Of a DNA stretch of 64,000 nucleotides, positions 39,792 to 49,490 are shown piece by piece. Position 1 is the first letter of the stretch. Every line of letters begins with the position of its first letter. Below the pieces are notes generated by a model. It saw only the letters and a list, made by a program, of their open reading frames with translations. It ran no database searches and was not told the origin of the DNA. The stretch is from an uncultured Erysipelotrichaceae bacterium (GTDB taxonomy: Bacteria; Bacillota_I; Bacilli_A; Erysipelotrichales; Erysipelotrichaceae), in NCBI GenBank assembly GCA_900314905.1, contig OMXA01000002.1, forward strand, positions 39,988 through 103,987, in the 5' to 3' direction. The position numbers and the translations under genes were made by a program.

Positions 39792-39919
39792 GGCTACTGC
39801 TATTACGATTGAACTGCTTCCTGGAAGTCTTCAGAGACCTCGGATGAATCATTTATGAAAAAAGTTACATACAAGATGAAAGAAAAATGCTATAGATGAA
39901 AATAATATGAAATATATGC

Positions 39920-39947
39920 TTGCATTTTCATTTCCGGGTAGTAAGAT
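39920..39947 (+). promoter_or_regulatory. Promoter of the T-box/opp transcript
   Basis: -35 TTGCAT at 39920-39925 and -10 TAAGAT at 39942-39947, spacer 16, preceded by an AT-rich stretch. Start of transcription at about 39954 would place the T-box at the 5' end. Between the previous terminator and here (39792-39919) I see no gene. Confidence 0.55.
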
Positions 39948-39959
39948 TCTAGTATCTTC

Positions 39960-40192
39960 AAAGAACAGAAGAGTACCTGAGACAGGAACGAGAGCGAGCC
40001 GGTGCAGAGTGGAAGTCCGGCGGTCATCCATCTTATGGGAAGCGCGTCTGGGAGAAGCTGCCCTGAACTACCAGTAGGGACAGAGTAAGCCGGCTATAAC
40101 GGCAAAGAGCGGCCGGCGTGACCGGCAAGCAGAGTGGTACCGCGGCAGAAGCCGTCTCTGAAGAATCTGATCTTCATGGGATGGCTTTTTAC
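39960..40192 (+). ncRNA. T-box riboswitch leader, probably tyrosine-specific
   Basis: A cis-acting leader that senses uncharged tRNA. The T-box core AGAGTGGTACCGCG is at 40131-40144, with UGGU able to pair with a tRNA acceptor ending ACCA. Stem I landmarks are present: GAGTACC near 39971, the AGCCGG...CCGG apical arm (about 39997-40022) and the AGTAGGGAC block at 40073. The specifier is read as UAC (Tyr, 40069-40071) by its position after CUGAAC; a shift of reading would give CUA (Leu). AGAG (40131) can pair with CTCT (40156) as the antiterminator, which excludes the terminator stem beginning AGCCGTCTC (40150) that ends in TTTTT at 40186-40190. Starvation for the cognate amino acid would turn on the downstream opp genes. 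Confidence 0.92.
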
Positions 40193-40220
40193 GTTGATAC
40201 CACAGCAAGGGAGAAAGAAT

Positions 40221-41921
40221 ATGAAGGGAAATTGGCTTAAGTCATTACTCGCGGCAGGCCTTGCTGCATCACTGGCTGCCTGCGGAAGCAGCGGGGGCAC
40301 AGCTTCCTCTGGCAGCTCAGCAGCTGCAGCAGGAGGAACCGAAACGGCAGCAGCTTCCAAAGACTCGGCAATTGTTGTTGCGACCAGCTCGCAGTTCACG
40401 ACCCTGGACCCGGCCCTGAATACCGAGACGGTCAACCAGCATGTGATCACGCATATCTATTCCAGCATGTTCCGTTCGGATACGTCCGGGGTGGCTCAGC
40501 CGGAATTAGCTGACAGCTATGAAGTCAGCGAGGATGGACTGACGTATACCTTCCATCTGAAGGATGGAATCACCTGGTCTGATGGCACGCCGATCACTTC
40601 CGCGGACTTTGTCTACTCGTATCTCCGGGCATTGTCCTATGGCGCAGACAATGTATGGGCAATCTATGATATGACGAGCTTCATCGAGGGGGCAAAGGAA
40701 TACAATGAGGCAGCTCTGGAAGCAGGAACGGATTTCGACTGCACCACAGCTGATCACAGCTATGTCGGAATCGAAGCCCCGGATGATCAGACTCTGGTTC
40801 TGAAACTCAAGGTTCCGTGCACGTATCTGCCTGGCCTTATGACAGGCAATTCCTGGACGCCGGTTCCGCAGAGCACACCTCAGCATGACTCGCTCTGGTC
40901 CATGACTGCCGGATATGCGACTTCCGGACCTTATACGCTGACCGATTTCAATGAGAATGACAAAGCGGTGCTGGTCAAGAATGATGCGTACTTCAATGCG
41001 GATTCGATCACGATGAATCAGATCACCTTCCAGGTCATGACCGACCAGGATGCGCAGTCGGTTGCCTTCAAGTCGGGTGAAATCGATATCGCAGATTCCG
41101 TCTCCATCGATACTGCGCAGAGCTATAAGGACACCGACAGCCTCTGGCTGATCAATACTCCGGTCAACTACTTCCTGGCAATTAATTCCGGCGAAACCGG
41201 TCCTGAATGGGCGAAGGATGTGAATGTCCGCAAGGCACTGGCGGAGGCAATTGACAAAGACGCGCTCACCGATGTGCTTGGCGGAACCGATTTCTATCCG
41301 GTTCTAAATGGCTATATTCCATACGGCTTAGCTGGAAATGACGGCGACTTCCGCGAAGAAGGCGACAAGATGGCAGAAGAAAAGGGGATCACGATCTCCT
41401 ATGATCCGGACGATGCCAAGGCACTGCTTGCGGCAGCCGGATATGATGACAGCAATCCGCTCCATATCACGTACAAGTATTCGAATTCCGGCATCCATGG
41501 CGATGTCGCAACGATCCTGCAGCAGATGTGGGAAGCAGTAGGAGTCCAGGTGGACTTTGAAGCAGTTGAATCCGGCGTGTTCTATGATCAGCTGGATCAG
41601 GGTGACTTCGAAATTTCCCGCTACGGCTATTCTGCCGGTGACTCTCCGATTCAGTTCCTCGATCTCTGGACAACTGGCATCCAGGTCACGGCAGCAGTCG
41701 ATGATCCGGCTTATGATCAGATGGTATCTGATATCAAGCAGATTGCGGATCCGAAGGAATTCATCAGTGCCTGCCATGATGCAGAAGAGTATCTCTATTA
41801 CCAGAATGTCTATGTGATCCCGCTGTTCCAGTACACTTCACAGTATCTGGTGAATGAGAACCTGGCAGGATACGAACTCGATGGAACGAACACGTTCTAC
41901 GGCCACACTTATTTCGAATGA
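40221..41921 (+). CDS. oppA: Oligopeptide ABC transporter substrate-binding lipoprotein (OppA-like)
   Basis: A 566-residue lipoprotein of the SBP_bac_5 family that captures peptides outside the cell. The signal peptide MKGNWLKSLLAAGLAASLAAC ends in a lipobox with Cys21, followed by a flexible Gly/Ser linker. The conserved YTFHLKDGITWSDGTPITSADFVYSYLR block is clear. The true start is ATG 40221, after AGGGAGAAAG; the longer open frame runs into the T-box. It is the first gene behind the leader. A strong hairpin follows, which may set a higher level of this receptor than of the permease genes. Confidence 0.93.
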   Translation: MKGNWLKSLLAAGLAASLAACGSSGGTASSGSSAAAAGGTETAAASKDSAIVVATSSQFTTLDPALNTETVNQHVITHIYSSMFRSDTSGVAQPELADSYEVSEDGLTYTFHLKDGITWSDGTPITSADFVYSYLRALSYGADNVWAIYDMTSFIEGAKEYNEAALEAGTDFDCTTADHSYVGIEAPDDQTLVLKLKVPCTYLPGLMTGNSWTPVPQSTPQHDSLWSMTAGYATSGPYTLTDFNENDKAVLVKNDAYFNADSITMNQITFQVMTDQDAQSVAFKSGEIDIADSVSIDTAQSYKDTDSLWLINTPVNYFLAINSGETGPEWAKDVNVRKALAEAIDKDALTDVLGGTDFYPVLNGYIPYGLAGNDGDFREEGDKMAEEKGITISYDPDDAKALLAAAGYDDSNPLHITYKYSNSGIHGDVATILQQMWEAVGVQVDFEAVESGVFYDQLDQGDFEISRYGYSAGDSPIQFLDLWTTGIQVTAAVDDPAYDQMVSDIKQIADPKEFISACHDAEEYLYYQNVYVIPLFQYTSQYLVNENLAGYELDGTNTFYGHTYFE

Positions 41922-41927
41922 TTCCCT

Positions 41928-41952
41928 GGCAGAGGAGTCTGACTCCTCTGCC
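41928..41952 (+). terminator. Perfect hairpin between oppA and the S9 peptidase gene
   Basis: The self-complementary sequence GGCAGAGGAGTC-T-GACTCCTCTGCC (up to 12 bp) starts 6 bases after the oppA stop and is followed by TCATTTTC. It is likely a partial terminator or an mRNA-stabilising end for oppA. Confidence 0.7.
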
Positions 41953-41973
41953 TCATTTTCAGAAAGGATTGAG

Positions 41974-43917
41974 ATGGAACTTGTCAGAAAAGAAGACATC
42001 GCTGCAATCAGCTGCCTGAACCATCTGGTTCTCAGCCCGGATCAGAAGACAGCAATTTTTACGAAGATCACCCCGGACCTCAAGGAGAACAAGGAACACC
42101 GGAATCTCTTTGTCCTGGTTCCGGAAACCGGAAAGGTATTCCAGCTGACCGCCGGAAACAGCGATGATGGAGCAGTATTCGAAGACGATCATACGATCCT
42201 CTTTCAAAGCGGACGGAAAGAATCCGAACAGCAGCCGCACACCAGCTTCTATCGCATCGATGTGAAGGGCGGTGAAGCAGAACCGGCTTTTGAACTGGAG
42301 GAGGAGGTAGAGCAGGTCTGGAAGCTTCCGGAAGGAAAGTATCTTCTGAAGATCTGCAGAGACCGCTATCGTACGGAACCAGAAGCAGGCGATGTTCATG
42401 TTGCTGAAGAGATCCCGGTATGGGCAAATGGCAGAGGCTTTGTGGCAGGCAAGCGTTCCGGTCTGTTTGTCTTTGATTCGAAGACAAAAGAACTGAAGGC
42501 AGTCACGGATGAGAACGAAGATACTGAACATGCCTGCGTGCGCGGGTCTGAAGTGCTCTGGATCAGCCGGACCTTTGATGAGATTCTCCCGGATACGAGC
42601 ACGCTGAAGCTGCTTGATACCGCGACTGGAGAAAAAAAGATCCTCGTTCCGGAAGGAGTCATGAAGGTCAGCTTCTGCACCTTTACGGACCATCAGATTG
42701 TGTTTGCGGGAACCGACATGAAGCCATGGGGACTCGGACAGCTCTCCGACTTCTATGTCGCTGACCCGAAGACCGGAACTTATTCTCTGCTGCATCAGAA
42801 TGCTGAGGAGCTTGCGATCGGAGATACGCCTCTGACGGATACGCTTCGTCCCTCCCAAACGACGTTTCAAGGAGCCGGATCAGAGGTCTATTTCACCGCC
42901 ATGTGCCATACGCATACGGATCTCTACAAGCTCTCGGAAGAAGGAAAAGTCTCTGAAGCAGCAGATGCAGAGGGAGGGGTGATTCTGGCAGCTGCTCTCT
43001 TTGGAAAGGATCTGATCACGATCCAGGCTCCGGTCAATGGCCTGAGCCAGGTATGCGTGAATGGAACGTGTGTCTATGATCCGAATGCGTCTTATCTGAA
43101 AGAACATGTCATCTCTCCGGTGAAGAAGCTCTCCTTCACGAATCGCAAGGGCGATGCGGTTGAAGGGTTCTATCTGGAGCCGTCGGGAAGATCGAACGGG
43201 AAGGCACCTGGCGTGCTCGAGATCCATGGCGGGCCGAGATGTGCATATGGCCTGACATTCTATCATGAGATGCAGACGCTGGCGGCAGAAGGATATTATG
43301 TCTTCTTCTGCAACCCGCATGGCAGCGAAGGCTATGGCGAAGCATTTGCGGATCTGCGCGGGAAGTACGGAACGATCGATTATGAAGATCTGATGGACTT
43401 CACCGATGAAGTGCTGAAGAAGCTTCCGATTGAGGAAACCAGAATCGGAGCAGGGGGCGGCAGCTACGGCGGCTTCATGAGCAACTGGATCGAAGGTCAT
43501 ACGAACCGCTTTGCGGCAATTGTGTCGCAGCGTTCTGTCTCGAACTGGGTTTCGGATTTCGGGGCAAGCGAAATCGGGGTTTCGTTTGATTCCAACGAGA
43601 TGGCAGCAGATCCCTGGAGCAATATGGAGGCGATGTGGAAGCAGTCGCCGCTTGCCTATGCCGATCATGCCAGAACCCCGATTCTGTTTCTGCACAGCCT
43701 ATGCGATTACAACTGCACGATCGATCAGGGAATGCAGATGTATACGGCCATGAAGTATTTCCATGTTCCTTCGAAGATGGTCCTGTTCGAAGGGGAGAAC
43801 CATGGGCTGAGCCGTTCTGGAAAGCCAGCGCACAGAATCCGCAGACTGGCGGAGATGATCGATTGGTTTGCCAGGTATCTGAAGAAAGGAGAAGGGAATG
43901 GGAAAGTATCTTGTTAA
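41974..43917 (+). CDS. S9 family serine peptidase (prolyl oligopeptidase/acylaminoacyl peptidase type)
   Basis: A 647-residue cytosolic peptidase: an N-terminal seven-bladed beta-propeller-like part (residues ~1-380) and a C-terminal alpha/beta-hydrolase domain. The nucleophile is Ser497 in GGGSYGGF; Asp578 (HSLCDYN) and His610 (GENHGLS) complete the triad. Such enzymes cut short peptides, so placement between oppA and oppB suggests hydrolysis of imported peptides. No signal peptide is present. ATG 41974 follows AGAAAGGA; the longer open frame is rejected because it overlaps the oppA 3' end and hairpin. The 3' end overlaps oppB by 20 bases. Confidence 0.9.
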   Translation: MELVRKEDIAAISCLNHLVLSPDQKTAIFTKITPDLKENKEHRNLFVLVPETGKVFQLTAGNSDDGAVFEDDHTILFQSGRKESEQQPHTSFYRIDVKGGEAEPAFELEEEVEQVWKLPEGKYLLKICRDRYRTEPEAGDVHVAEEIPVWANGRGFVAGKRSGLFVFDSKTKELKAVTDENEDTEHACVRGSEVLWISRTFDEILPDTSTLKLLDTATGEKKILVPEGVMKVSFCTFTDHQIVFAGTDMKPWGLGQLSDFYVADPKTGTYSLLHQNAEELAIGDTPLTDTLRPSQTTFQGAGSEVYFTAMCHTHTDLYKLSEEGKVSEAADAEGGVILAAALFGKDLITIQAPVNGLSQVCVNGTCVYDPNASYLKEHVISPVKKLSFTNRKGDAVEGFYLEPSGRSNGKAPGVLEIHGGPRCAYGLTFYHEMQTLAAEGYYVFFCNPHGSEGYGEAFADLRGKYGTIDYEDLMDFTDEVLKKLPIEETRIGAGGGSYGGFMSNWIEGHTNRFAAIVSQRSVSNWVSDFGASEIGVSFDSNEMAADPWSNMEAMWKQSPLAYADHARTPILFLHSLCDYNCTIDQGMQMYTAMKYFHVPSKMVLFEGENHGLSRSGKPAHRIRRLAEMIDWFARYLKKGEGNGKVSC

Positions 43918-44818
43918 GAGAATCCTGCTTGGAGTCGTGACACTGTTTGCATTGATGGCGATCACGTTTTTCCTGATGCATTCCATCCCGGGTTCTCCGT
44001 TTGCCGGAGAGACTTCGCGTCTGCCTGCTTCTGTCAGAGAAGTGCTGATTCAGAAATATCAGCTGGACCAGCCGATCAGCGTGCAGTTCATGACCTATCT
44101 CAGAAATGTGCTGCATGGCGATTTCGGGACTTCCCTGAACCGCAAGGGAACTACCGTCATGTCGATCATCCAGAAAGGTCTGCCGACGACCGCAAAGCTC
44201 GGTGCGGCAGCGTTTGTGGTGGCGATGGTCGCGGGAATTGCCCTCGGCATCGCCTCTGCGCTTTCTGATCGGGCATGGGTCCAGGGCATTGCCGCATTCT
44301 TCGGAACGATCGGAGTCTCGGTGCCTAGTTTCCTGCTGGCTCTCCTATTGATGTTCGTGTTCGGTGTCTGGCTCCATTGCCTGCCTGTCATCGGCCTGAA
44401 TACTCCGCAGAGCTACATCATGCCAAGCGTTGCCCTGGCAATCGGGCCGATTGCGATGATCTCGCGTCTGACCAGGTCTTCCCTGACGGAAGAGATGAAG
44501 CAGGATTATATGATCCTGGCGCGTTCCAAGGGGACCAGCAAGCAGAAAGCGATCCTTCATCATGCAATGAAGAATGCCAGCATCCCGGTGATCACTTATG
44601 CCGGACCGCTGCTTGCTACGCTGCTCACCGGTTCCTTTGTCGTAGAGACCATGTTCTCCATTCCGGGCATCGGTGCCGAGTTTGTCAATAGCGTCTCGAA
44701 CCGCGACTATACGATGATCATGGCACTGACCATTATCTACGGTGCATCCATCATTGTTGCCAACATCATCACGGATCTGATCACTGCGATGATTGATCCG
44801 CGCATCCGTCTGAAGTAG
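43898..44818 (+). CDS. oppB: Oligopeptide ABC transporter permease OppB
   Basis: A 306-residue membrane permease with six helices and the BPD_transp_1 domain. The coupling loop DYMILARSKGTSKQKAILHHAMKN carries the EAA-like motif that contacts the ATPase. It begins MGKYLVKRILLG, a typical OppB/DppB N-terminus, with AAGGAGAAGGG upstream. It overlaps the S9 peptidase gene and is 12 bases from oppC. Confidence 0.94.
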   Translation: MGKYLVKRILLGVVTLFALMAITFFLMHSIPGSPFAGETSRLPASVREVLIQKYQLDQPISVQFMTYLRNVLHGDFGTSLNRKGTTVMSIIQKGLPTTAKLGAAAFVVAMVAGIALGIASALSDRAWVQGIAAFFGTIGVSVPSFLLALLLMFVFGVWLHCLPVIGLNTPQSYIMPSVALAIGPIAMISRLTRSSLTEEMKQDYMILARSKGTSKQKAILHHAMKNASIPVITYAGPLLATLLTGSFVVETMFSIPGIGAEFVNSVSNRDYTMIMALTIIYGASIIVANIITDLITAMIDPRIRLK

Positions 44819-44830
44819 AGGAGGGAAAAC

Positions 44831-45787
44831 ATGTCTGAACTGGAAATGAAACAGCCCTATCCCGATGCGGAGAGTGTTCCGGAAAGCGAATTCGAGCCGC
44901 TTCCGGATTCGGAAAAGGATTCCGAATTCGTCGCCATGGAATCGAGGACCTACTGGTCGGATGTCTGGCGGAATTTCAGAAAGAACAAGCTCGCAGTGGT
45001 CAGCCTGGTTTTCCTGATCATCATGATTCTGCTTGCCATCTTCGTGCCGATGCTTTCTCCCTATACGTATGATGGCCAGGACCTTACGATGCGCAATGCG
45101 ATGCCGTCGCTTGCACATCTGTTCGGAACGGATAAGTTCGGAAGAGATATCTTCGTGCGGGTCATGTACGGGGCGAGGATCTCGCTGTCCGTCGGCTTTG
45201 CGGCTGCTGGAATCAATCTGGTGATCGGCACGATCTACGGAGGGATTGCCGGATACTGCGGCGGCAGGACTGATCTGATCATGATGCGGATCGTCGATAT
45301 CATCTACGCGGTGCCGACGCTCCTGTATGTCATTCTGATCATGCTGGTGTTCGGATCCAATGTCTGGTCCGTGCTGCTGGCGATCTGCGTGAGTTCCTGG
45401 GTCGGCCTTGCCCGTCAGGTCAGAGCTCAGGTCATGTCGCTGAAAGAACAGGAATATGCCCAGTGTGCCAAGGTCATGGGTGCCTCGGATGCCCGGATTC
45501 TGTTCAGGCACCTGGTCACCAACAGCATCGGTCCGATCATCGTCAATACGACCCTGATGGTTCCGAGCGCAATCTTCACCGAAGCATTCCTTTCATTTGT
45601 CGGCATCGGCATTTCGATTCCTCAGGCTTCCTGGGGAACGATGGCAAACGATGCCCGTTCTCTGATCAGCTCCTATCCGCTGCAGATGGTATGGCCGGTG
45701 GCGGCAATCTGCCTGACGATGCTGGCACTTAACTTTATCGGTGATGCGCTGAATGATGCGCTGGATCCGAAGAAACGGGGGCAGTGA
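44831..45787 (+). CDS. oppC: Oligopeptide ABC transporter permease OppC
   Basis: A 318-residue permease. An acidic cytosolic N-terminal extension of about 40 residues (ESVPESEFEPLPDSEKDSEF) precedes the usual WRNFRKNKLAVVSLVFL first helix; the EAA-like loop is EYAQCAKVMGASDARILFRHLV. It ends DALNDALDPKKRG, typical of OppC. AGGAGGG precedes the ATG. It pairs with OppB to form the channel. Confidence 0.94.
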   Translation: MSELEMKQPYPDAESVPESEFEPLPDSEKDSEFVAMESRTYWSDVWRNFRKNKLAVVSLVFLIIMILLAIFVPMLSPYTYDGQDLTMRNAMPSLAHLFGTDKFGRDIFVRVMYGARISLSVGFAAAGINLVIGTIYGGIAGYCGGRTDLIMMRIVDIIYAVPTLLYVILIMLVFGSNVWSVLLAICVSSWVGLARQVRAQVMSLKEQEYAQCAKVMGASDARILFRHLVTNSIGPIIVNTTLMVPSAIFTEAFLSFVGIGISIPQASWGTMANDARSLISSYPLQMVWPVAAICLTMLALNFIGDALNDALDPKKRGQ

Positions 45788-45789
45788 AC

Positions 45790-46809
45790 ATGACCCGTCA
45801 TATTCTTGAAGTCAATGATCTGGTCGTGAATTTCAGCACCGACCAGGGCACCGTCTATGCCGAACGAGGCATCACCTATGAGGTCAATGAAGGCGAGATT
45901 GTCGGCATCGTCGGCGAGTCCGGATCCGGCAAGTCGGTCTCGATGTATTCCGTCATGGGTCTTCTGGCAGGCAATGGCAGAATCGAATCGGGTGAGATCC
46001 TTCTGAATGGCGAAGATATCACTGCTTCTCATTTCAAGGATGAGAAAGCCTATGAGAAACGCATGGATGAGATCCGCGGCAAAGAGATGTCGATGATCTT
46101 CCAGGATCCGATGACCTTTCTGAACCCGACCCTGACCATCGGAAAGCAGATCAGGGAAATCATCCTGAATCATAACCATATCAGCGATGCGGAAGCCAAT
46201 GACAGAGCGATTGAGCTGCTTAAGGAAGTCGGCATCAATGAACCGGAAAAGCGGATGACGCAGTATCCCCATGAATTCTCCGGCGGCATGCGCCAGAGAA
46301 TCATCATTGCAATTGCGCTGGCCAACAAGCCATCGCTGATGATCGCGGATGAGCCGACCACGGCCCTTGATGTGACCATCCAGGCCCAGGTGCTTGATCT
46401 GATCAAGAACCTGTCCAAGAAAGAAGGTTCTTCCGTCATCCTGATCACGCATGATCTCGGCGTCGTTGCTTCGATGTGCGATTACATCTACATCATGTAC
46501 GGCGGCAAGATCGTCGAGTCCGGAACTGATCTGGATATCTTCTATCACCCGACGCATCCGTATACGATCGGACTTCTGAACTGCATCACGAACCCGGAAG
46601 ATGATACTTACAAGGAACTGCAGCCGATTCCCGGTTCTCCGCCGGATCTGCTCAAGCCTCCTGTCGGCTGTCCGTTTGCGGATCGCTGCAGCAAGGCGAT
46701 GAAGATCTGCCGGAAACAGATGCCAGCCTTCACCCAGTTCACAGAAGACCACAAGAGTGCCTGCTGGCTGAATGAAGTGAAGCGCAGAAAGGGGGAGAGT
46801 CCGGTATGA
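45790..46809 (+). CDS. oppD: Oligopeptide ABC transporter ATP-binding protein OppD
   Basis: A 339-residue ABC ATPase with Walker A GESGSGKS, signature EFSGGMRQR, Walker B LMIADEPTTALD, and the C-terminal oligopeptide-type extension with a cysteine cluster (CPFADRCSKAMKIC) like those holding an iron-sulfur or metal site in Opp/Dpp ATPases. ATG 45790 is preferred to GTG 45784, which overlaps the oppC stop. The stop overlaps the oppF start (ATGA). Confidence 0.94.
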   Translation: MTRHILEVNDLVVNFSTDQGTVYAERGITYEVNEGEIVGIVGESGSGKSVSMYSVMGLLAGNGRIESGEILLNGEDITASHFKDEKAYEKRMDEIRGKEMSMIFQDPMTFLNPTLTIGKQIREIILNHNHISDAEANDRAIELLKEVGINEPEKRMTQYPHEFSGGMRQRIIIAIALANKPSLMIADEPTTALDVTIQAQVLDLIKNLSKKEGSSVILITHDLGVVASMCDYIYIMYGGKIVESGTDLDIFYHPTHPYTIGLLNCITNPEDDTYKELQPIPGSPPDLLKPPVGCPFADRCSKAMKICRKQMPAFTQFTEDHKSACWLNEVKRRKGESPV

Positions 46810-47792
46810 GTGAACAGCCTATTGTATCGATCCAGCATCTGAAGACCTACTTTGATGTGACCAGAGGCATGTTTGCAAAGAAACAGGTTGTCAAAGCAGT
46901 CGATGATGTGTCGTTTGAAGTGTATCCCGGCGAGACGTTCGGACTTGTCGGAGAGTCCGGCTGCGGCAAATCGACGCTCGGTCGCACGATCGTCAAGATC
47001 TATGAACCGACAGGCGGAAAGATCTTCGTGAAAGGAAAAGACATCACCGGACTCAGGGGCAGTGAGCTGCATGACTTCCGCAGAACCTGCCAGCTGATTT
47101 TCCAGGATCCTTATGCTTCGCTGGATCCGCGCATGACCGTCGGCGAGATCATCAAGGAACCGATGGAAATCAACCATCTTTACGGTTCCTCAGAAGAACG
47201 GGAAGAAAAGGCAGAAGAGCTCTTGAAGCTCGTCGGTCTCAAGCCGGATCATATCCGCCGCTACCCGCATGAATTCTCCGGCGGCCAGCGGCAGCGCATC
47301 TCCATTGCGAGAACCCTTGCCCTGAACCCGGAATTCATCGTCTGCGATGAGCCGATCTCCGCCTTGGATGTTTCAATCCAGGCCCAGATCATCAATCTTC
47401 TCAAGCAGATTCAGAATGAACTCCATATTGCCTATCTGTTCATTGCGCACGATCTTGCGATGGTCGAGCATATCTCCGACCGAATCGGTGTCATGTACCT
47501 CGGCCACCTCGTCGAGATCGGAAGTGCCCGTGAAGTCTACCATCATCCGCTTCACCCGTACTCTCAGGCATTGCTGTCAGCGGTGCCGATTCCTGATCCG
47601 ATCAAGGGCAAGAACAGCCATCGTCAGATTCTGCAGGGAGAGATTCCCTCGCCGATCAATCCGCCGGTATGCTGTCCATTCTGCACCAGATGTCCCTTTG
47701 CTGAGGAACGCTGTCATCATGAGATGCCGGCGATGAAAGACTATGGCGGGCATTTCGCTGCCTGCTTCAGACTGGAGAGTGAACATGAATAA
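46806..47792 (+). CDS. oppF: Oligopeptide ABC transporter ATP-binding protein OppF
   Basis: A 328-residue ABC ATPase with Walker [10 protein letters not shown], signature EFSGGQRQR, Walker [13 protein letters not shown] and a C-terminal Cys cluster ([15 protein letters not shown]). It forms the heterodimer with OppD. It has GGGGGAG upstream and overlaps the M20 gene by 8 bases. Confidence 0.95.
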
Positions 47793-49188
47793 CCCATACG
47801 CAGAAGATCTGAAGAACCTTGCAAGGTTCGTCTATTCGCATCCGGAGCCAGGATTCCAGGAAGAGAAATCCAGCCATGCTCAGACGGAATATCTGAAGTC
47901 ACAGGGCTTTGAAGTAGAAACCGATCTCTGTCACACGCATACCGGATACCGTGCTTCTTACGGAAGCGGTCATCCGGTCATCGCCTTGCTTGGCGAATTC
48001 GATGCATTATACGGACTCGGCCAGAAGGCAGATGAGGCCATGCCGTGCCCGGATGGAAAAGCCATGGGACACGGCTGCGGCCATCACATGCTTGGAACCG
48101 CGGTGATCGGTGCAGGATTGCTGATCCGCGATTACCTGAAAGAAAAAGGAATCCCTGGAACCATTCAGATCTATGGATGCCCTGGGGAAGAAGCAGGGTC
48201 GGGGAAAGCCTACATGGCAAGAGATGGTGCATTTGATGGCGTGGACATTGCCTTCTCGTATCATCCCTCTGTATTCCATCAGGTCTGCACCGGCAGTTCG
48301 CAGAGCTGCATTTCTGCCAACTTCCGGTTCCATGGCATCGCGGCCCATGCGGCAGGAGAACCGCAGAATGGAAGATCTGCCCTGGATGCCGTAGAGCTCA
48401 TGGATGTCGGAACCAACTATCTGCGTGAGCATATGGAAAGCACTGACCGGATTCATTATGCAATCACGAATACCGGCGGCAGATCGCCCAATGTCGTGCA
48501 GGCAGAAGCGGAAGTCAAATATCTGATCCGTTCCACGAACAATCGCAAATGCCTTGCCCTCTATGACCGCGTCAGGAAGATTGCTCAGGGAGCGGCTTTG
48601 ATGACGGGGACTTCCGTTGAGATTCTGTTTGATGAAGGCCTCTCGAATACGATCGTGAATTTCACGCTGGAAGACGTGCTGGCGGAGGCATTCCGGAAAG
48701 CAGGAGCTCCGGTCTATTCAGAGGAAGATCTTGCCTATGCGAAGAAATTCTATGATACCTGGAAGGAACCATATACGCTGGACCAGATTCCGTATCCGGT
48801 AAAAGACAAGAAGAAGCTGCTGGAATCAGAAAAGACCTCAGTGATCAATGACTATTTTGTCGAGACGATTCATTCCGATCGCTGCGAGATGGGATCCACG
48901 GACGTCGGCGATGTGAGCTACGTCGTCCCGACCGCAACCCTCAATACGGCATGCTACAGCTATGGGGCAGGTGCGCATTCCTGGCAATGGGTAGCAGAAG
49001 GGGCAAGCGAGATTGCGATGAAGGGCATGCTGAAGGGATCTGAGGTATTGGCACTTGCCGCAGAATCTCTCTATGAACATCCTGAAACGGTGGAAGCCGC
49101 AAAGCAGGAATTTGCGGAACGGACGAAAGACGATCCTTATCAGTGTCTGATTCCGAAGGATGTGATGCCGCATCCGATTCTGATGTGA
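47785..49188 (+). CDS. M20 family amidohydrolase/dipeptidase (AbgB-like)
   Basis: A 467-residue cytosolic zinc hydrolase of the M20D group. Metal-site segments are GHGCGHHMLGT, GCPGEEAGSGKAYM and FSYHPSVFHQ; the dimerisation domain (about 185-300) and a late HSW motif (GAGAHSWQW) are present. The closest style is AbgB of p-aminobenzoyl-glutamate hydrolase, but in an opp operon it more likely hydrolyses N-acyl amino acids or dipeptides. ATG 47785 is chosen because it overlaps the oppF stop region and gives the family N-terminus. It is the last gene of the T-box-controlled module; no clear terminator was found directly after it. Confidence 0.88.
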   Translation: MNNPYAEDLKNLARFVYSHPEPGFQEEKSSHAQTEYLKSQGFEVETDLCHTHTGYRASYGSGHPVIALLGEFDALYGLGQKADEAMPCPDGKAMGHGCGHHMLGTAVIGAGLLIRDYLKEKGIPGTIQIYGCPGEEAGSGKAYMARDGAFDGVDIAFSYHPSVFHQVCTGSSQSCISANFRFHGIAAHAAGEPQNGRSALDAVELMDVGTNYLREHMESTDRIHYAITNTGGRSPNVVQAEAEVKYLIRSTNNRKCLALYDRVRKIAQGAALMTGTSVEILFDEGLSNTIVNFTLEDVLAEAFRKAGAPVYSEEDLAYAKKFYDTWKEPYTLDQIPYPVKDKKKLLESEKTSVINDYFVETIHSDRCEMGSTDVGDVSYVVPTATLNTACYSYGAGAHSWQWVAEGASEIAMKGMLKGSEVLALAAESLYEHPETVEAAKQEFAERTKDDPYQCLIPKDVMPHPILM

Positions 49189-49285
49189 AGCGCTTGCAGA
49201 AATATCTTTTCTAGAGAAAGCAGATTTCATGAAAACTCTTCATGGAACTGAAGCGATCCGCCATAGAAATCAGAATAGATTCCGC

Positions 49286-49291
49286 TATAAT
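49286..49291 (+). promoter_or_regulatory. -10 box for small RHH gene
   Basis: TATAAT lies 26 bases before ATG 49317, with AAGGAGG between; the -35 region (ATAGAA) is poor. Confidence 0.5.
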
Positions 49292-49316
49292 ACGAGCAAG
49301 CAAGGAGGAACAGGAC

Positions 49317-49490
49317 ATGGCTTACAACATGCAGATGATCAGCGTGGCAGCAGATGATGACCTGAATTCTGAAGTAGAAAGCTTCCGGATCCAGCACCAT
49401 ATCTGCACAAAGTCTGAGGCCGGCGCCGAGCTCATGCGGCTTGGTCTTGAAGCTGCAAAAGCACATGCCGGTGCAGCAGAGAGACGCTGA
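49317..49490 (+). CDS. Small ribbon-helix-helix-like protein
   Basis: A 57-residue protein (MAYNMQMISVAADDDLNSEV...). One short strand (MQMISVAADD) is followed by two helices (DLNSEVESFRIQHH and TKSEAGAELMRLGLEAAKAH), the layout of ribbon-helix-helix DNA-binding proteins of the MetJ/Arc class. ATG 49317 has a strong AAGGAGG 8 bases upstream; the longer frame starting at 49242 runs across the promoter and is rejected. It is a solitary gene between the opp module and a terminator. It may be an antitoxin-like or other small regulator, but no toxin gene is adjacent. Confidence 0.7.
   Translation: MAYNMQMISVAADDDLNSEVESFRIQHHICTKSEAGAELMRLGLEAAKAHAGAAERR

Follow-up and report, generated by a model that had tools for sequence, protein, structure and literature searches.

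A T-box leader with an arginine specifier codon precedes a peptide import and peptidase gene module in an uncultured Erysipelotrichaceae bacterium

The stretch of 64,000 nucleotides of contig OMXA01000002.1 analysed here, which we refer to as the window and which stems from the draft genome of an uncultured Erysipelotrichaceae bacterium, carries a T-box leader ahead of seven genes on the + strand. These genes encode the binding protein, permeases and ATPases of a predicted oligopeptide permease (OppABCDF), an S9 family peptidase and an M20 amidohydrolase in the order oppA-S9-oppBCDF-M20. We conclude that a T-box of the transcription-attenuating type, which is predicted to read tRNA-Arg, probably controls this module. 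At the level of sequence, the leader, its specifier codon, the overlap of terminator and antiterminator, the gene content and the presence of a matching tRNA are established; the positions of all features are compiled in Table 1.

The T-box had been proposed in a sequence-only reading of the window, and a check with covariance models bore it out: the leader gave a full-length match to RF00230 (model positions 1-219, 39952-40162 on the + strand, 89.8 bits, E 3.5e-20; cmscan in E-value mode). Folding of positions 39900-40215 gave a structure that was better than those of all shuffled sequences (100/100, z -3.45), and six related leaders yielded a consensus fold in which 15 of the 45 pairs had a change on both sides. 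The predicted terminator overlaps the antiterminator, so that the two folds are mutually exclusive, as is characteristic of a T-box, and the bulge of the antiterminator carries a UGGN sequence; we classify the leader as a T-box of the transcription-attenuating type. Among the promoter-like sites listed for the window, none was located near the start of the leader.

The specifier bulge in Stem I is formed by an AGUA and a GAA strand together with the triplet CGC, a codon that can be assigned to a host tRNA (see below). The reading frame was calibrated with 14 T-boxes of the same genome for which an amino acid can be deduced from the gene behind them, and three offsets were tried. In 11 of these 14 leaders, the cognate codon occupied bases 2-4 ahead of the proximal stem, and this rule, if applied to the window leader, yields CGC and thus arginine. 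The ends of the calibrator bulges were judged by eye from the T-box alignments. Gene names were assigned by NCBIfam models above cut-off for 12 of the 14 calibrators (9 of the 12 follow the rule), the name MetN comes from a best match below the NCBIfam cut-off, and one gene with a PF04392 match is what we take to be trpX. As a control, we read six T-boxes ahead of argG (argininosuccinate synthase) in six relatives, which were chosen where the T-box row adjoined the argG row among the matches listed. Read by the rule, all six carry CGU (Arg), and the other two offsets would give Thr or Val codons; the reading frame behind the leader was inspected in one of the six, and the other five were placed by Pfam positions. 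The same specifier position is prioritised in the description of the T-box database TBDB (PMC7778990), and a conserved purine follows the specifier according to a review passage (PMC7583486).

To compare leaders within the genus, we built a Stem I model from six close T-boxes and ran it on 71 genomes of the same genus with strict filters, by which weak matches are lost. It yielded at least 94 matches in 60 of the 71 genomes (genomes are given as G and contigs as C numbers). Of these 94, 86 leaders were read (88 alignment rows minus two duplicate-site rows), leaving out G086:C48, G094:C104, G014:C25, G015:C589, G016:C133, G034:C7, G017:C1 and G010:C286. At the calibrated position, 74 leaders carry CGC, eight CCG (Pro) and four CAC (His). 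The base before CGC is variable (G 47, C 16, A 11; n = 74). The genes behind the 74 CGC leaders encode substrate-binding proteins (SBPs) of amino-acid ATP-binding cassette (ABC) transporters (58), OppA (6) and M14 carboxypeptidases (7), and three leaders have no open reading frame (ORF) in reach. All 58 SBP leaders and all 7 leaders of M14 zinc carboxypeptidases carry CGC, and the eight CCG leaders precede PutP-like sodium/proline symporters (8/8), with no other gene class found behind CCG. The ten oppA leaders are divided into six with CGC (five genomes, window included) and four with CAC (four genomes), specifiers that are one base apart. Each of these group names rests on one representative protein, which is a fragment for the PutP-like group (332.7 bits versus a cut-off of 515.5) and for the M14 group; the M14 protein has carboxypeptidases, e.g. 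A4, B, B2 and T, as its solved relatives. The window leader also has a paralogue in the same genome (138 of 208 aligned bases identical), which precedes an SBP followed, as judged by eye, by a permease and an ATPase; among the solved relatives of this SBP, ArtJ is second-best after the reconstructed ancestor AncQR.

At an offset of +1, all 74 CGC leaders would read Ala (GCA or GCG), which speaks against arginine, and because of this the constancy of CGC alone is insufficient to fix the frame. A T-box that reads tRNA-Ala via GCG, one base upstream or downstream of CGC, would be permitted by the bulge sequence GCGCG, and the host has a tRNA-Ala(CGC) gene with A as the discriminator base. The frame is, however, settled by the PutP-like CCG leaders and the argG CGU leaders: the eight PutP-like leaders would read Arg at +1, and the argG leaders give Arg at offset 0 only. 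The calibration likewise disfavours an Ala frame, since offset +1 fits none of the 14 calibrators and offset -1 fits two, and at -1 the 86 leaders would be split into Ala (47), Thr (23) and Pro (16). We therefore regard a sensor of tRNA-Ala as highly improbable.

The tests proposed in the sequence-only reading assume tRNA-Tyr as the sensed tRNA, possibly because of a UAC triplet in the leader. This assumption had to be given up, since the triplet sits in the next hairpin and outside the specifier bulge, none of the tested offsets yields Tyr in the window leader, and the tyrS leader of the same genome has UAC at the usual specifier place; that tRNA-Tyr is read here can practically be dismissed. 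From the calibration, the genus comparison and the PutP-like and argG controls we conclude that the predicted specifier of the window leader is CGC, for arginine and not tyrosine, which also fits the tRNA set of the host.

ARAGORN, run on 20 stretches covering the 41 tRNA matches of the genome, returned 41 tRNA genes. Two of them encode tRNA-Arg(ACG), and both end in ACCA, which is complementary to the UGGU of the leader. Since tRNA-Arg(GCG) is absent from these 41 genes, CGC is presumably read by tRNA-Arg(ACG) via inosine at the wobble base. UGGU is present in all ten oppA leaders, the four His-type leaders included; the tRNA-His gene of the host genome ends differently, and TBDB is described as ignoring the discriminator base for His (PMC7778990).

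In the mechanism that we propose, a shortage of arginine would lead to the pairing of uncharged tRNA-Arg(ICG) with the CGC specifier, while its ACCA end would pair with UGGU and stabilise the antiterminator. RNA polymerase would then read on into oppA, S9, oppBCDF and M20, presumably in a single transcript across a hairpin that follows oppA. OppABCDF would import peptides, which the S9 peptidase and the M20 amidohydrolase would cut in the cell; inspection by eye revealed no signal peptide in either enzyme, and we assume a cytoplasmic location for both. The amino acids freed from the peptides would include arginine, and once tRNA-Arg is charged, the terminator would form.

The seven genes behind the one T-box are arranged in an operon-like manner, in agreement with the sequence-only reading. 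Its description of them as all tightly spaced applies to the part from S9 to M20, where neighbouring genes overlap or are 12 nucleotides apart, but not to oppA and S9, which are separated by a gap of 52 nucleotides with an 11-bp hairpin. The domain set of an oligopeptide permease is complete (PF00496, two copies of PF00528, and PF00005 with PF08352 (oligo_HPY) twice). The best scores of OppA, OppB, OppC and OppD were all below the NCBIfam cut-offs of the Opp equivalog models, and OppF passes the dipeptide-ATPase subfamily model NF008453 only. The nearest solved structures of OppA are oligopeptide-binding proteins, and that of the S9 peptidase is 7ep9, an S9 family peptidase (E 8.8e-129).

The hairpin in the gap is likely to represent a partial terminator or an mRNA stabiliser, which suggests that oppA and the later genes are not equally expressed. 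It could also mean that the T-box reads tRNA-Arg but governs mainly oppA, in that the hairpin stops most transcripts and S9-oppBCDF-M20 are driven from elsewhere. This is compatible with the control of the module that we propose, but we consider it rather unlikely, since the T-rich tail of the hairpin is weak and no promoter-like site is listed for the + strand of the gap. In addition, the four relatives that were read likewise have predicted hairpins in this gap (the weakest in G031, z -1.96 versus single-base shuffles), and their sequences differ, as one would expect if the element adjusts expression and does not separate it. In favour of a control mainly of oppA, the T-box-oppA genes of G005 and G036 lie apart from the S9-oppB-oppC-oppD-M20 sets of these genomes, and no T-box was found on the set of G005.

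Relatives of the S9 peptidase at E 1e-150 were present in 20 of the 71 genus genomes, host included. The order oppA-S9-oppB-oppC was found in G018, where the contig ends at this point, in G031, where an oppD-like gene and M20 are also present, in G090 with M20, and in G081 with oppD, oppF and M20, where oppA is cut by the contig end. In G005, G036 and G078, S9-oppB-oppC-oppD-M20 occurs without an adjoining oppA, and cmscan detected no T-box on the sets of G005 (C65) and G078 (C41), nor did a motif search, which was the only search performed there, on that of G036 (C258). G066 has the same order, and no T-box was found on this stretch, where S9 begins at base 363 of the contig and thus too close to its end for the absence to be telling. 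These four genomes carry T-box-oppA genes, one of the Arg and one of the His type each in G005, G036 and G078, and one of the His type in G066. No T-box was found on the S9-oppBCDF-M20 contig of G081, which ends inside oppA. On a separate contig of G081, a CGC T-box is found together with an oppA that is 71% identical to that of the window, and the ends of the two contigs share 82 of 85 bases, which fits adjacency but equally well two copies. From this comparison, T-boxes appear to move together with oppA, and a T-box ahead of the entire module seems to be a feature of the host lineage and perhaps also of G081. For T-boxes of other transporters, a similar mobility is argued in Wels 2008 (PMC2494555).

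A gene for argininosuccinate synthase (argG) was not found in the host genome, and all 14 control genomes were positive in the same search; from this, the host is likely to be an arginine auxotroph. A loss of argG as a trait of the genus was ruled out, as an argG match above 50 bits is present in 33 of the 71 genomes (the search tool itself counts 34 over the cut-off).

Several points weigh against the reading of the leader and the module given above. The score of the leader is 3.2 bits short of the Rfam gathering cut-off of 93 for RF00230, which is a curation threshold and not an anatomical feature, and a scan of the window at the gathering threshold was therefore empty. The host genome (2.14-Mb draft) has 18 T-box matches, the window leader among them, 9 of which are over the cut-off, and the valS, thrS, trpS, lysS and pheS leaders (78.3-83.1 bits) are below it, too. 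In the calibration, trpS and lysS have the cognate codon one base further upstream, hisS has it at none of the three offsets, and for leuS the stem was lengthened by one G-C pair to fit the rule. The base after CGC is A in 72 of the 74 leaders and G in two, of which the window leader is one. UGGC takes the place of UGGU in 6 of 58 SBP, 3 of 7 M14 and 5 of 6 argG leaders. In G018, G031 and G090, no T-box was found by cmscan ahead of the same gene order. Finally, the draft genome in which argG was not found is 94.6% complete, and G005 and G078 possess argG together with T-box-oppA genes, which makes the T-box-opp arrangement independent of a loss of argG. UGGC-bearing leaders of the Arg type thus occur in relatives, among others on G064:C12 and G008:C105, although the tRNA-Arg(ACG) of the genome that contains the window has A before CCA.

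Table 1 Features of the T-box leader and the downstream module in the window.
Feature	Position	Strand	Evidence
T-box leader (Stem I, Stem II, Stem IIA/B, Stem III, antiterminator)	39952..40162	+	RF00230 full-length match
Putative specifier codon CGC (Arg), after GAA-G, before G-UCUG	40043..40045	+	cmscan alignment position, frame calibration, genus comparison, argG control
UAC triplet, Stem II hairpin loop, outside specifier bulge	40069..40071	+	Sequence versus cmscan structure line
Predicted antiterminator	40130..40160	+	Fold -12.4 kcal/mol, z -1.72
UGGU of T-box bulge	40135..40138	+	Complementary to ACCA end of tRNA-Arg(ACG)
Predicted intrinsic terminator with U run	40150..40190	+	Fold -20.3 kcal/mol, z -4.37, 0/200 shuffles as good
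oppA, peptide-type substrate-binding protein (SBP_bac_5)	40221..41921	+	PF00496 E 1.1e-76
11-bp hairpin in 52-nucleotide oppA/S9 gap	41928..41952	+	Fold -20.7 kcal/mol, z -3.92
S9 family peptidase	41974..43917	+	PF00326 E 7.1e-48
oppB permease	43898..44818	+	Pfam/NCBIfam matches
oppC permease	44831..45787	+	Pfam/NCBIfam matches
oppD ATPase	45784..46809	+	Pfam/NCBIfam matches
oppF ATPase	46806..47792	+	NF008453 419.3 bits, cut-off 408
M20 amidohydrolase	47785..49188	+	TIGR01891 249.5 bits, cut-off 153.75; PF07687

Downstream of M20, the window contains a small ORF of 82 amino acids (49242-49490) that matches no Pfam or NCBIfam model; a promoter-like TAGAAA-16-TATAAT at 49264-49291 lies within this ORF as listed, ahead of an ATG at 49318.

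Further T-boxes are located ahead of transport and peptidase genes in the same genome and its relatives. At C18:12469-12714 of the host genome, a second T-box precedes oppA, a dipeptidase of the beta-Ala-His/PepD type (TIGR01893, 391.7 bits, cut-off 343.75), two more oppA genes, oppB, oppC, oppD and oppF; its specifier would be CUG (Leu) by the rule, which is uncertain. Of 13 such loci of relatives scanned with cmscan, one is preceded by a T-box (G093, the closest, 57% identical), and a motif search of 30 loci of this type, including that of the host, gave a T-box in the host and in G093 only. Another T-box of the host, at C73:5719-5960, stands before a CstA-like transporter, and the rule gives AUC (Ile), again with uncertainty. 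In G008 (C105) and G064 (C12), Arg-type T-boxes lie ahead of an M14 carboxypeptidase gene and, as a separate unit, ahead of an SBP-permease-ATPase set, whose permease and ATPase were named by eye; a further Arg-type leader of G008 is followed by an SBP gene together with a second M14-like gene.

As a tentative interpretation, the Arg T-boxes of the genus, which precede argG, amino-acid ABC importers, Opp-type importers and M14 carboxypeptidases, might form a nutrient-source regulon, in which the choice among synthesis of arginine, its uptake and its release from peptides would lie with a single uncharged tRNA. In the oppA branch, which has diverged into CGC (Arg) and CAC (His) leaders, the specifier might report which amino acid is supplied by the peptides of each OppA. 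If the control of the module holds, T-boxes would extend past free amino acids, in that the charging of one tRNA would open both the import of peptides and their digestion inside the cell. The specifier would then give a clue, open to testing, to what is supplied by OppA proteins and peptidases, whose specificity is hard to predict, and the pairs of Arg and His OppA leaders within the same genomes would represent a natural experiment on the retargeting of T-boxes.

That T-boxes mostly precede gene classes other than an opp-plus-peptidase module, as the sequence-only reading had remarked, agrees with the shares given in Wels 2008 (PMC2494555), where tRNA ligase genes account for 62% of the T-boxes, biosynthesis genes for 18% and amino-acid transport genes for 12%. 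Arg is missing from the rows of the transporter table of that paper, and neither "opp" nor "peptide" is matched in its main text. A C. difficile review counts 25 T-box units, comprising 11 for ligases, 9 for metabolism, 4 for transporters and 1 for an ACT-domain protein. Among the titles and abstracts returned by literature searches, we recognised none on a T-box ahead of an opp operon or a peptidase, and an earlier mention in large T-box surveys is possible.

Compared with known systems, the leader described here resembles the T-boxes of Firmicutes amino-acid ABC transporters, as presented in Wels 2008 (PMC2494555), in that it belongs to the same leader family and its specifier predicts the amino acid; likewise, the transporter T-boxes of that survey are found at individual transporters in a small number of species, in a manner that suggests acquisition. 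In contrast to those transporters, the cargo here is a peptide importer together with two hydrolases. The Met T-box of Lactococcus lactis, as described in PMC7058034, also turns on the scavenging of an amino acid which an auxotroph cannot make, but it serves a high-affinity transporter of free methionine. The importer itself corresponds to the oligopeptide permease OppABCDF with its binding protein, two permeases, two ATPases and Opp domain set, and differs from it by the S9 peptidase gene between oppA and oppB, the M20 enzyme in last position and the tRNA-sensing leader. What distinguishes the system is not its proposed mechanism, which is that of an ordinary T-box, but its unusual cargo.

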